Assembly (NCBI RefSeq): GCF_024808875.1
Contig: NZ_JANUCT010000020.1
Location: 1 to 50,705, forward strand
Direction: 5' to 3'
DNA: 50,705 nt
Source: Methylohalomonas lacus
GTDB taxonomy: Bacteria; Pseudomonadota; Gammaproteobacteria; Methylohalomonadales; Methylohalomonadaceae
A program made the translations under genes and the position numbers. Positions 6,893 to 44,566 of this stretch are shown here, one piece after another. The notes beneath the pieces were generated by a model. The model ran no database searches. It had not been told where the DNA came from and saw nothing but the letters and a program-made list of their open reading frames with translations. The stretch's first letter is position 1, and each line of letters opens with the position of its first letter.

Positions 6893-6912
6893 TAAATGTA
6901 CGCTATCGCACA
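6893..6912. promoter_or_regulatory. Crp/Fnr-type site (copy A)
   Basis: TAAATGTACGCTATCGCACA shares the 15-base core GTACGCTATCGCACA exactly with the copies at 41341-41360 and 43152-43171. Here the outer left arm is degenerate, and no -10 box lies 16-17 bp away on either strand. Binding is therefore plausible but its effect is unclear. Confidence 0.5.
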
Positions 6913-32270: not shown

Positions 32271-32727
32271 AATTTAGGCCAACGCTGTCGTGATCCATTA
32301 ACCTGCCCCTGAACAATTGCCGTAATGGTTATTAATTGACTTTAATACTGTTACGGACATTTGAAACAGCGGATCAAGCCTGTATCCGTTATTAGATGAC
32401 CGAACCAAAGGCTGATCACGCACGGATTCAGCCTTCATAATCGCTTTAGACAGGCCTTCCAGTCTGTGCGGTAGAGTACATAAAAGCCAGGCACACCCTC
32501 CCAGGTACTGTCTGGCCCCGCATAGACAGGCTTCTTTCATTCGTTAGCGCTGTTTACTCATTTGTGTATGCAATCGCACAGATCGGGAAACTCTAAAAGT
32601 CGATCATAATCACCTCAATCTTTGCACCACTATAACTAACTCAAAGAAGCGCCAGGAATTGGTACAGGATTGAACCAATGAGCAGAACCGGTTTTACCCG
32701 GCGGCATCTATGAGGAGAGCAGTTTAG
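32271..32727. other. Divergent intergenic region between prsK and the initiating transferase
   Basis: No convincing gene. An 80-codon minus-strand frame at 32298-32540 lacks a ribosome-binding site and any family signature. The region holds a Crp-type site at 32561-32580, a CTGTC/GACAG hairpin near 32509-32530, and a good GAGGAGAG Shine-Dalgarno at 32711-32718 for the plus-strand gene. I saw no sigma-54 match here, so the prsK promoter is unassigned. Confidence 0.5.
32561..32580. promoter_or_regulatory. Crp/Fnr-type site (copy B)
   Basis: TTTGTGTATGCAATCGCACA fits the window consensus but differs from the core at two bases. It lies 148-167 bp before the initiating transferase gene. No -10 box is seen 16-17 bp away on either strand. 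Confidence 0.4.
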
Positions 32728-41195: not shown

Positions 41196-41310
41196 AAGAA
41201 AACCCGTTTATGCGATTTCTCGCATAAACGGGCCAAGTCTGAATATGCCGAGAACAATTATCTAGGGGGAGTGATAACTGTACTCAAGAGGGGCTGCATG
41301 CATATTCAGC
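41196..41310 (-). ncRNA. Predicted ~115-nt structured small RNA under a Crp-type site
   Basis: Three signals line up on the minus strand: a Crp-type site at 41341-41360, a 17-bp spacer to the -10 box TATATT (41318-41323), and a rho-independent terminator at 41199-41232. Between them is no convincing ORF. The predicted transcript folds neatly. CTGAATATGC (41300-41309) pairs over 10 bp with GCATATTCAG (41239-41248). Inside, AGUUAUC/GAUAAUU forms a 7-bp stem (one G-U) with loop ACUCCCCCUA, and a second C-run CAGCCCCUC lies in the 5' part. C-rich loops that can pair with Shine-Dalgarno G-runs are common in regulatory RNAs. The transcription start (about 41310) is predicted only. Confidence 0.55.
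41199..41232 (-). terminator. Rho-independent terminator
   Basis: CCCGTTTATGCG (41203-41214) pairs perfectly with CGCATAAACGGG (41221-41232) over 12 bp with a 6-base loop. On the minus strand it is followed by TTTTCTT. It is 217 bp past the Crp/Fnr stop at 41449, and it could end the small RNA, the Crp transcript, or both. Confidence 0.75.
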
Positions 41311-41317
41311 AAGCTTA

Positions 41318-41360
41318 AATATAGCTATAAGAAAGAAACAAATCTGTACGCTATCGCACA
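41318..41360 (-). promoter_or_regulatory. Crp-type site and -10 box for the small RNA (copy C)
   Basis: AATCTGTACGCTATCGCACA at 41341-41360 is followed on the minus strand by 17 bp and TATATT at 41318-41323. The same site-to--10 arrangement is found before both tandem Crp/Fnr genes. There is no TTGACA-like -35 box, as expected where an activator replaces it. Confidence 0.55.
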
Positions 41361-41448: not shown

Positions 41449-42156
41449 TCAAGTCAAGATCCGCGCATAGTCGTTGACTATCGTCTTGTAACAACTACAG
41501 GATGCCGCTTCAAGTTCCTTGCGGTCGAGAATAGTTATTTGTCCACGAACATAACTAATGAGTTTTTTCTTTTGCAGTGCGCCCGCGGCAATGGTGACAC
41601 CACTTCTGCGTACGCCGAGCATATCGGCAAGCAACTTATGAGTTAGACTAAATTTATCAGCATGGGCGCGATCATGTGTCATAAGTAACCAGCGCGCCAG
41701 GCGTTTCTCGACACCATGAAAATGCGTACAGGCGGCAGATATGGAAAGCTGTGAGATCATGACATATATATAACGTTCGAGCGTACGTTGTAAAGCGATG
41801 CTGTCGCTCAATTCAGACATGAATTGTCGCGTGCTCATGCACAACGCTGTACCAACGCCCTGAACTACAGCGCGCTGGATGGCGGAATTGATACCGAGCG
41901 TTAGCGTCGAACCGAACATACCTTCATTGCCTATCAGGCCAACCTCCAGAGGATTATGGCCATCCATGATTTCCACTATCGATATGAAACCATCCAGCGG
42001 GAAATATACTTGGCGGATAGGTTCATCCCGTTCACACAGGATCGTACCAAGAGGAAGATCGACATGGCTGCAGCAGCCAATAAAGTCACTGCGTTGCTTT
42101 TTGGGCAGGCGATTGATCAGTGTATTTTCGGTTGCTGATGGTAGTGCAGCTGACAT
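41449..42156 (-). CDS. Crp/Fnr-family transcriptional regulator (paralogue 1)
   Basis: This 235-residue regulator has an N-terminal cyclic-nucleotide-like beta-barrel (residues about 15-135, with VYFPLDGFISIVE and VGLIGNEGMFG) and a C-terminal winged helix-turn-helix (LTHKLLADMLGVRRSGVTIA, residues about 170-200). It lacks the N-terminal Cys cluster of Fnr. Near the C-terminus it has CSCY, matching CCECY in the two paralogues. The ligand is unknown. A weak copy of the Crp-type site (42248-42267) lies upstream. Confidence 0.87.
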   Translation of the reverse strand: MSAALPSATENTLINRLPKKQRSDFIGCCSHVDLPLGTILCERDEPIRQVYFPLDGFISIVEIMDGHNPLEVGLIGNEGMFGSTLTLGINSAIQRAVVQGVGTALCMSTRQFMSELSDSIALQRTLERYIYVMISQLSISAACTHFHGVEKRLARWLLMTHDRAHADKFSLTHKLLADMLGVRRSGVTIAAGALQKKKLISYVRGQITILDRKELEAASCSCYKTIVNDYARILT

Positions 42157-42346: not shown

Positions 42347-43090
42347 TCAGGTGTTGACCCTGTGTAGATAGGGCAGCAGGCGCTCGGCTTCCTTCTTGAC
42401 CACGGCATAACACTCGCAGCACAGCTTTTCCAGATAGGGCCGGTCCAGCACCGTGATATGACCACGGTTGTAATTGATAATGCCGAGTCGCTGCAGCTTG
42501 CCGGCCGCCTGGGTCACGCCTTCGCGGCGCACACCCAGCATGTTGGCAATCAACTCCTGGGTCATGGTTAGCTGATTGCCCGGCAGCCGGTCCAGCGACA
42601 GCAGCAGCCAGCGGCACAGCTGCTGGTCGATGGAATGATGCCGATTGCAGACCGCGGTCTGGGCCATCTGCGTAATCAGCGATTGCGTGTAGCGCAGGAG
42701 CAGATTCATCATTTCGCCGTGGCGATTGAACTCATCCTTGATCCATTGCCCCGGCAAACGAAAGGCGCCGCCAGCGCTTTGCACAATGGCACGGCTGGTG
42801 GTGCTCTCGCCGCCCATGAACAGGGCAACGCCGACAACGCCTTCGTTGCCGACCACCGAGATTTCCGCCGAAGAGCCGTCCTCCATGACATAGAGCAGGG
42901 AAATGATTGCGTCGGTGGGAAAATAGACATAGCGCAAGGTATCACCGGATTCATACAGAACCTTGCCGAGCGGCAGGGACACGTATTCCAGTTGTGGCAA
43001 AACACGCTCGCGCACATCATCTGACAAACTGGCCAGAAGATGGTTACTTTGCATTGCGTCGCTCTTTTCTAGAGCATCGATCTTAGGCAT
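42347..43090 (-). CDS. Crp/Fnr-family transcriptional regulator (paralogue 2)
   Basis: This 247-residue regulator is nearly the same as the one at 43371-44195 over most of its length, showing recent duplication. The sensor domain (VYFPTDAIISLLYVMEDGSS, VGNEGVVGVALFMGG) and the helix-turn-helix LTMTQELIANMLGVRREGVT are clear. It ends in CCECYAVVKKEAERLLPYL. The start is ATG at 43090 with a GGGGG ribosome-binding site. A promoter with a perfect TATAAT (43130-43135) and Crp-type site (43152-43171) lies directly upstream. Confidence 0.9.
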   Translation of the reverse strand: MPKIDALEKSDAMQSNHLLASLSDDVRERVLPQLEYVSLPLGKVLYESGDTLRYVYFPTDAIISLLYVMEDGSSAEISVVGNEGVVGVALFMGGESTTSRAIVQSAGGAFRLPGQWIKDEFNRHGEMMNLLLRYTQSLITQMAQTAVCNRHHSIDQQLCRWLLLSLDRLPGNQLTMTQELIANMLGVRREGVTQAAGKLQRLGIINYNRGHITVLDRPYLEKLCCECYAVVKKEAERLLPYLHRVNT

Positions 43091-43296: not shown

Positions 43297-43366
43297 TGTA
43301 ATAGGAGATTTGAGCGAATTACGCCCTGTTCCATGGGCGGATTTATTCATAATTCTTAATTATGAA
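43297..43366 (+). pseudogene. Deleted copy of the small membrane protein gene (lmo0937/DUF5670 type)
   Basis: The stretch holds the ribosome-binding region (TAGGAG) and then TTACGCCCTGTTCCATGGGC, matching the intact copy at 44420-44566 from its codon 19 or so. The start codon and about 57 bp of the 5' part are missing, and sequence diverges after GGATTTATTCAT. The copy is clearly broken. Confidence 0.75.
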
Positions 43367-43370
43367 ACGA

Positions 43371-44195
43371 TCAGCGGGTAATTCCGTATGATGACCTGTT
43401 AGTTCTGCCAACAACATGGTTAGCTATGTTTAGTTGCGTATGAGCATCACCGGACGGACCTGCCGGAGTTTCCGCGTTGACCCTGTGTAGATAGGGCAGC
43501 AGGCGCTCGGTTTCCTTCTTGACCACGGCATAACACTCGCAGCACAGCTTTTCCAGGTGGGGCCGGTCCAACACCGTGATATGACCACGGTTGTAATTGA
43601 TAACGCCGAGCTTCTGCAGCTTACCGGCCGCCTGGGTCACGCCTTCGCGGCGAACGCCCAGCATATTGGCGATCTGCTCCTGGGTCATGATCAACTGATT
43701 GCCCGGCAGCCGGTCCAGCGACAGCAGCAGCCAGCGGCACAGCTGCTGGTCGATCGTATGATATCGATTACAAACCGCGGTCTGGGCCGTTTGCGCGATC
43801 AGCGATTGTGTATAGCGCAGGAGCAGATTCATCATTTCGCCATGGCGATTGAACTCATCCTTGATCCAGCGTCCCGGTAACCGATAGGCACTGCCAGTGC
43901 TTAGCACAACGGCGCGGGTGGTGGTGCTCTCGCAGCCCATGAACAGGGCGACGCCGACAACGCCTTCGTTGCCGACCACCGAGATTTCCGTCGACGTGCC
44001 ATCCTCCATGACATAGAGCAGGGTGATGATCGAGTCGGTGGGAAAATAGACATAGCGCAAGGTGTCGCCAGACTCATACAGAACCTGGCCGAGCGACATA
44101 GACACGAGTTCGAGGCATGGACAAACACGCTGGCATACCTCGCCTGACAAATTGGCCAGCAGGTGGTTTTTTTGCAGGGCGTCGTTCTTGGGCAT
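43371..44195 (-). CDS. Crp/Fnr-family transcriptional regulator (paralogue 3)
   Basis: This regulator of about 274 residues is the tandem duplicate of the one at 42347-43090. The sensor (VYFPTDSIITLLYVMEDGTS) and helix-turn-helix (IMTQEQIANMLGVRREGVTQ) are kept. It differs in its C-terminus, which reads through the ancestral stop for some 33 residues (ETPAGPSGDAHTQLNIANHV on) up to the broken gene copy next to it. The ATG at 44195 with AGGAGGAAGTGAT before it is the best start; an open extension to 44306 lacks support. A Crp-type site and -10 box lie upstream. Confidence 0.88.
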   Translation of the reverse strand: MPKNDALQKNHLLANLSGEVCQRVCPCLELVSMSLGQVLYESGDTLRYVYFPTDSIITLLYVMEDGTSTEISVVGNEGVVGVALFMGCESTTTRAVVLSTGSAYRLPGRWIKDEFNRHGEMMNLLLRYTQSLIAQTAQTAVCNRYHTIDQQLCRWLLLSLDRLPGNQLIMTQEQIANMLGVRREGVTQAAGKLQKLGVINYNRGHITVLDRPHLEKLCCECYAVVKKETERLLPYLHRVNAETPAGPSGDAHTQLNIANHVVGRTNRSSYGITR

Positions 44196-44229
44196 ATCAC
44201 TTCCTCCTAGGAAGCATGCGATATTTAAA

Positions 44230-44272
44230 TTTATAGCAAAGGCCACCCACCCTGTGTGTTCGCTATAACACA
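44230..44272 (-). promoter_or_regulatory. Promoter with Crp-type site (copy E)
   Basis: TGTGTGTTCGCTATAACACA (44253-44272) is followed on the minus strand by a G-rich 17-bp spacer and TATAAA (44230-44235), in front of regulator 3. This is the same layout as before regulator 2. Confidence 0.55.
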
Positions 44273-44376
44273 TATAAAGCTTGCCTCTCCTCGGCCGACC
44301 CGGCACCGGATCATTAGTCTGCGTGCGCTGGCGTACAGACCTGTTAAGACACTGCGTTCACCCTGATTCAATCTGT

Positions 44377-44392
44377 CCCAATACGAATTGGG
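44377..44392. repeat. Conserved inverted repeat before the small membrane protein gene
   Basis: CCCAAT-ACGA-ATTGGG recurs as CCCAAT-ACGG-ATTGGG at 43274-43289 in the duplicated unit. It sits 28 bp upstream of the ATG and could be an operator or an RNA stem near the ribosome-binding site. Confidence 0.45.
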
Positions 44393-44419
44393 TTTGCACA
44401 GCAATAGGAGGTTGGAGCA

Positions 44420-44566
44420 ATGCTGGAAACAATCGTCGTCATTCTATTGATCCTGTGGGCATTGGGACTGGTTACGTCCTATTCCATGGGCGGACTTATT
44501 CATATTCTTCTGGTCATTGCGATCGTCGTGATATTACTTCGGGTGATCCAGGGTAGAAGGTTATGA
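44420..44566 (+). CDS. Small membrane protein, lmo0937 family (DUF5670-like)
   Basis: This 48-residue protein has two hydrophobic helices split by SYSMGGLIH and ends in a basic RVIQGRRL tail. That is the form of the lmo0937 family small membrane proteins, which are often stress-linked but whose function is unknown. It was found by direct translation, being too short for usual ORF cut-offs. The AGGAGG ribosome-binding site is excellent. A broken copy is at 43297-43366. Confidence 0.8.
   Translation: MLETIVVILLILWALGLVTSYSMGGLIHILLVIAIVVILLRVIQGRRL

Follow-up and report, generated by a model that had tools for sequence, protein, structure and literature searches.

The DNA analysed here (the window) is a stretch of 50,705 nucleotides (nt) from Methylohalomonas lacus, which harbours a compact locus on its minus strand between 41360 and 41196, close to three genes for Crp/Fnr-type regulators (regulators 1, 2 and 3). 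Read from 5' to 3', the sequence and its predicted fold provide a Crp-type box, a 21-nt spacer, the hexamer TATATT, about 8 nt, an RNA core and a terminator. Taken as a whole, the locus is probably the gene of a Crp-activated trans-acting small RNA (sRNA), whose C-rich loop would pair with Shine-Dalgarno sequences. Its parts are as follows:

41345-41360, minus strand: Crp-type operator TGTGCGATAGCGTACA, followed by GA (41344-41343), from the sequence and a pattern scan of the own genome; the same box stands before 7/7 RNA copies and before related regulators
41318-41323, minus strand: -10 hexamer TATATT, 21 nt past the box, from the sequence; this spacing is 21-22 nt in 7/7 copies
about 41312-41310, minus strand: predicted transcription start
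41300-41309, minus strand: 5' strand of the closing stem (10 bp), CUGAAUAUGC, from fold and covariation
41287-41299, minus strand: unpaired C-rich strand AUGCAGCCCCUCU within the closing stem, from the fold; most members are C-rich there
41249-41286, minus strand: inner hairpin with apical loop ACUCCCCCUA (loop 41272-41263), from the fold, with two-sided changes in 11/13 pairs
41286-41283/41252-41249 and 41281-41273/41262-41254, minus strand: inner stems of this hairpin, from the fold
41239-41248, minus strand: 3' strand of the closing stem, GCAUAUUCAG, from fold and covariation
41196-41234, minus strand: Rho-independent terminator with a 15-bp stem, a GAAA loop and a U-rich tail, from the fold; stem pairs are conserved with changes

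A previous inspection of the letters alone (the sequence-only reading) had described a Crp-type site, a -10 box, a 10-bp closing stem, a hairpin with a C-rich loop and a strong terminator on this strand, and all of them were confirmed by sequence and fold. That reading had overlooked another C-rich stretch, GCAGCCCCUCU, which is left unpaired within the closing stem. The terminator stem is built by the strands 41234-41220 and 41215-41201, followed by UUCUU, with four linker bases separating it from the closing stem. The RNA including the terminator folds with -48.1 kcal/mol, corresponding to a z-score of -7.4 against dinucleotide shuffles, while the 74-nt core without the terminator reaches -5.0 (0/300 shuffles as good) and an 81-nt cut with flank -3.2. 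The centroid of the window RNA is the same as its minimum-energy fold and, consequently, no alternative antiterminator fold is favoured.

BLAST of the RNA found no match in 55 relatives of the class or in plasmids. A covariance model made from the single window sequence (R1) was run over 58 loci holding a relative of regulator 1, a search of the kind that the sequence-only reading had proposed, and it revealed relatives in four other genomes: L055:3802-3912 (E-value 5e-7), L034:3829-3942, L034:3551-3670, L064:3869-3986 and L056:1339-1456. Every R1 match sits immediately behind a relative of regulator 1 or within the same cluster. The two L034 matches form a tandem pair of complete box-RNA-terminator units. 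A second model, R2, added L109, a further copy in the Nevskia soli genome that contains L064. In total, seven copies are found in five genomes of distant Gammaproteobacteria, the window included, the other hosts being Nevskia, a Lysobacteraceae metagenome-assembled genome (MAG) and two other gammaproteobacterial MAGs. The regulator 1 relatives of these RNA-bearing genomes are at most 61% identical to regulator 1. In every copy, read by eye, a closing stem of 8-12 bp with a sequence particular to that copy is accompanied by an inner hairpin and a terminator, and each core alone folds better than its shuffles (z -3.4 to -5.0). With a model of the core only, the members score 41-74 bits, high by construction, against at most 24 bits for everything else. 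In 4/5 genomes an RNA copy lies directly behind regulator 1, about 100-170 nt downstream and on its strand. In L034 the RNA is separated from the regulator by other genes, and no regulator is found near L109.

Several other matches were discarded. The R2 matches L093-L095, L097-L100, L104, L106-L108 and L110-L112 are terminators alone or chance hits, without the box or the C-rich hairpin, and the core-model matches L123-L133 (at most 24 bits) lack the box and are attributed to chance. L105, on the same contig as L056 and about 10 kb away, is a broken duplicate that repeats the L056 RNA in its 3' half only, with closing strand and terminator, and lacks the C-rich hairpin. Divergent members were also sought in the other regulator loci by box plus terminator, and none with a C-rich loop was found; in L038, L051 and L076 the gene behind the box is a protein gene. 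On the minus strand of L082, from Methylomonas koyamae, a perfect box at 1138 precedes TAAGCT and roughly 90 nt with a strong terminator at their end, perhaps another, unrelated box-controlled sRNA.

The covariance of the stems in relatives, suggested as a check by the sequence-only reading, gave a positive outcome. In the model-fitted alignment, two-sided changes occur in 28/38 pairs, the closing stem, inner hairpin and terminator are kept in all copies, and 88.6% of the cells are paired, compared with 30-42% when the partners are slid. Since the model-fitted alignment leans towards the structure, a second test was carried out on a MAFFT alignment built without it. RNAalifold recovers the closing stem unaided from this alignment, with two-sided changes in 7/11 pairs and 90.9% of the closing-stem cells paired (23-35% when slid), to be read with the caveat that the copies came from a search that rewards pairing. 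The copies share this secondary structure without any shared open reading frame (ORF), as expected from a trans-acting sRNA, in agreement with the earlier statement that the 165-bp stretch holds no convincing ORF. At the sequence level, 7/7 copies also have their own promoter and their own terminator. On this comparative sequence evidence for the parts, their conservation and their structure, the gene and its fold are well supported.

The three neighbouring regulators, which score far below the NCBIfam cut-off for Fnr, are located as follows:

41449-42156, minus strand: regulator 1, Crp/Fnr-type (HTH_Crp_2), the conserved upstream neighbour, with a box at 42267-42252, from Pfam, relatives and the box
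42347-43090, minus strand: regulator 2, Crp/Fnr-type, with a box at 43171-43156 and the ribosome-binding site (RBS) CUACGGGGGCUUGU, a possible target, from the sequence, Pfam and target ranking
43371-44195, minus strand: regulator 3, Crp/Fnr-type, with a box at 44272-44257 and the RBS CUAGGAGGAAGUGAUAUG, complementary to the RNA loop and the best candidate target, from the sequence, Pfam and ranking

Across the 2.76-Mb genome, the box pattern is matched perfectly at four places, before the RNA, regulator 2, regulator 3 and at 6897; because all of them fall inside the window, the RNA box is not a chance occurrence. It shares 15/16 letters with the box of regulator 2 and is related to that of regulator 3, TGTGTTATAGCGAACA, and regulator 1 has a weaker box, previously overlooked. 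The -10 follows the end of the 16-bp box after 21 nt for the RNA, 21 for regulator 1, 20 for regulator 2 (TATAAT) and 21 for regulator 3 (TATAAA), so the spacing was rightly described as the same as in the two Crp/Fnr promoters of regulators 2 and 3. A run of eight G lies between the box and the -10 of regulator 2 (43150-43142). The box was never part of the covariance models or the search, and it is nevertheless present in 7/7 RNA copies, with 11-13 of 13 fixed positions and 21-22 nt before a -10-like hexamer, the latter being weak in the G+C-rich genomes. Its score was reached in 0/2000 shuffles for six copies and in 4/2000 for the seventh. In the seven RNA genes and in regulators 1-3, the 20-22 nt from box to -10 place the centre of the palindromic site near -41.5 from the predicted starts, which is the class II position of Crp and Fnr. 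A box of the same kind, TGTxCGxTAxCGxACAGA, precedes related regulators in other genomes, and it is therefore probably the operator of this regulator family. The co-occurrence with these regulators suggests that a Crp/Fnr protein binds the box and activates from it, and Crp control of the RNA is probable.

The earlier proposal that the locus encodes a regulatory RNA is supported by the covariance, the model search and the box before every copy. From these features we infer that the locus is transcribed, that a Crp-type protein activates it, that the RNA pairs in trans and which mRNAs it targets, in the following model. A stand-alone sRNA gene of about 115 nt would be activated, as at a class II promoter, by a Crp/Fnr-type regulator bound to the box at -41.5, most likely the adjacent regulator 1, 2 or 3. 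The transcript would then fold back, its 5' end locked in the closing stem against the base of the terminator, and expose a C-rich apical loop together with a C-rich internal strand. Both would pair with the G-rich Shine-Dalgarno regions of target mRNAs, lowering their translation, with the mRNA of the co-regulated regulator 3 as the best candidate target in the window genome. Pairing with Shine-Dalgarno sites is likely. The loop is C-rich in most copies (CACUCCCCCUAG, CCUCCCCCAUAG, CACCUCCUCC, UAUCCCCUUU and CUUCUCCCCCGG), as is the 5' strand (CUCUCCCCCC, CCCUCCUCC and UUCUCCCCCC). These exposed parts resemble the anti-Shine-Dalgarno tail of 16S rRNA, and in L034 one copy has AUCACCUCCU, which matches ten letters of the 16S 3' end exactly.

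Candidate targets were ranked among 432 predicted starts, from the window plus a genome sample of about 400 kb. With the hairpin segment UUAUCACUCCCCCUAGAUAA, the start of regulator 3 takes first place of 432; with the shorter loop segment it comes fourth. The start of regulator 1 shows no fit to the RNA. The sequence-only reading had proposed that the C-run could pair with the GGGGG before regulator 2; this pairing is only weakly favoured (rank 39/432 for the hairpin segment and 21/432 for the second C-rich strand). The RBS of regulator 3 fits better, and neither is supported as a conserved target in the relatives. Regulator 3 may be regarded as the best candidate target in the window genome, and feedback on the regulators is only a lead there.

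Several observations weigh against a Crp-activated, Shine-Dalgarno-pairing sRNA. There are only seven copies in five genomes, and the search itself rewards pairing. The RNA is present in 3/369 genomes of the class sample, window genome included, and its carriers lie scattered across the regulator tree, in which the regulators with an RNA were not seen to be monophyletic; L063, sister to L064, has no RNA copy behind its regulator, and in the Perlucidibaca locus L051 another Crp-like gene stands behind a box at the corresponding place. This scattered distribution asks for many losses, transfer or missed copies. The regulator starts in relatives are not unusually complementary to the RNA, and regulator mRNAs are not supported as conserved targets. 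Near-perfect complements of the loop in the own genome show no excess (7 matches against 6 in the control), and at L109 the C-rich loop is poorer. The presence of an hfq gene in the genome counts in favour of the sRNA, but Hfq may not be needed, since the sRNA sX13 is Hfq-independent (PMC3771888).

Among the other explanations, the RNA could act as a decoy that titrates a protein, without any pairing to mRNAs. In favour of this, the fold is strong and closed and leaves little of the sequence unpaired, a C-rich-specific protein could bind the two C-rich patches, and the regulator targets are not conserved. By reading, however, the RNA shows no known decoy motif, neither the GGA loops of CsrA/RsmA ligands nor the A-rich repeats associated with Hfq/Crc, and known sRNAs with C-rich loops pair with G-rich RBSs (PMC3771888), making a decoy unlikely.

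It is quite improbable that the locus is the leader (attenuator) of the downstream sugar epimerase gene (40885-39878), with the box driving the operon and the terminator deciding on read-through. This next same-strand gene starts about 310 nt downstream, and the loop arm UUAUCACUCC (41277-41268) is perfectly complementary over ten bases to GGAGUGAUAA (41186-41177), placed just past the terminator in an RBS-plus-AUG setting, which could in principle compete with the hairpin. The downstream genes, however, differ among relatives, the next long ORF of the Lysobacteraceae copy being opposite in direction, and L034 has two complete tandem units, both of which argue against the leader of one gene. 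No matching complement was seen behind the terminator of L055 or L034b, and the terminator is very strong, with no antiterminator fold favoured. Also past the terminator, AGGAGUGAUAAUG resembles an RBS and the start of a five-codon ORF (MHSQS).

The proximity to regulator 1 in 4/5 genomes, always on its strand, would fit a 3' untranslated region and terminator of that gene, with no separate RNA gene. Against this speak the box and the constantly spaced -10 that separate RNA and regulator in every copy, the genes intervening in L034 and the absence of an adjoining regulator at L109, so we hold it to be quite improbable as well. Lastly, a small peptide of 13 codons, MHAAPLEYSYHSP or MQPLLSTVITPPR, encoded by one of the two short ORFs in the 5' half of the RNA (starts about 41303 and 41299) is most improbable, as they lack a Shine-Dalgarno sequence, their start codon or frame is not kept in L055 or L034a, and changes track base pairing rather than codons.

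The RNA described here, a Crp-controlled sRNA in our reading, probably belongs to a real sRNA family of a known kind, undescribed as far as tested. With Rfam 15, no family reached its gathering cut-off in the window, and four member loci and the seven cores gave nothing above the cut-off. The best match of a permissive scan was GibS (RF04182), with a similar overall plan of 5' part, hairpin and terminator, which was rejected as chance (19.6 bits against a cut-off of 115, E-value 1.7). Full-text literature yielded no description of the family, which is weak evidence because "Crp/Fnr" is unsearchable as written. FnrS of Escherichia coli is a Crp/Fnr-activated sRNA whose short intergenic gene has a terminator of its own and a Crp/Fnr-type site near -41.5. 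The window RNA shares these traits, but there is no sequence or structure match in Rfam, and its box and regulator subfamily differ. A precedent is sX13 of Xanthomonas, whose C-rich loops repress mRNAs with G-rich motifs near the start (PMC3771888). Both RNAs have about 115 nt, a strong fold and CCCC/CCCCC loops, which in the window RNA would likewise be directed at G-rich motifs close to the start of translation. While sX13 is defined by three stem-loops, with 4C, 4C and 5C loops, behind an unstructured 5' region (PMC3771888), the window RNA is a single closed stem with one C-rich apical loop, a C-rich strand and a GAAA terminator loop, and the Crp-type box before every copy further sets the family apart from the published description of sX13. 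The UCCC-loop sRNAs of Staphylococcus and RepG (HPnc5490) of Helicobacter also use a C-rich loop as seed against G-rich RBSs (discussed in PMC3771888), although their sequences, lineages and control are unrelated.

The window corresponds to an XrtA/PEP-CTERM exopolysaccharide cluster (PrsK, PrsT and an EpsB-type transferase). Plus-strand boxes followed by GA and a 21-nt spacing stand at 6897-6912, before a putative O-ligase gene (7184), and at 32565-32580, before the EpsB-type glycosyltransferase gene (32728). These two boxes suggest that the regulators, and the RNA with them, may belong to exopolysaccharide control. A broader interpretation, which we consider possible but doubtful, is that of a patchy, widely dispersed sRNA family that would mimic the 16S anti-Shine-Dalgarno tail in an exposed loop, acting as a Crp-switched blocker of many RBSs and as a feedback loop on its own Crp-like regulators, here in a PEP-CTERM exopolysaccharide cluster. 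For a large, little-studied group of Crp/Fnr-type regulators, the family adds a probable RNA arm whose promoter box, structure and seed are defined, in lineages where sRNAs are hardly annotated at all. With the covariance model and the box, the family can be searched for and tested directly, and it would be a further instance in which C-rich loops, which occur in unrelated bacteria, are reused as general Shine-Dalgarno blockers.

Finally, a plus-strand ORF at 44420-44566 appears by eye to encode a small membrane protein (beginning MLETIVVILLILWALGLVTSYSMGG), and a decayed copy of it lies near 43345, in the gap separating regulators 2 and 3 (region 43340-44566), which points to tandem duplication of a regulator together with its neighbour.
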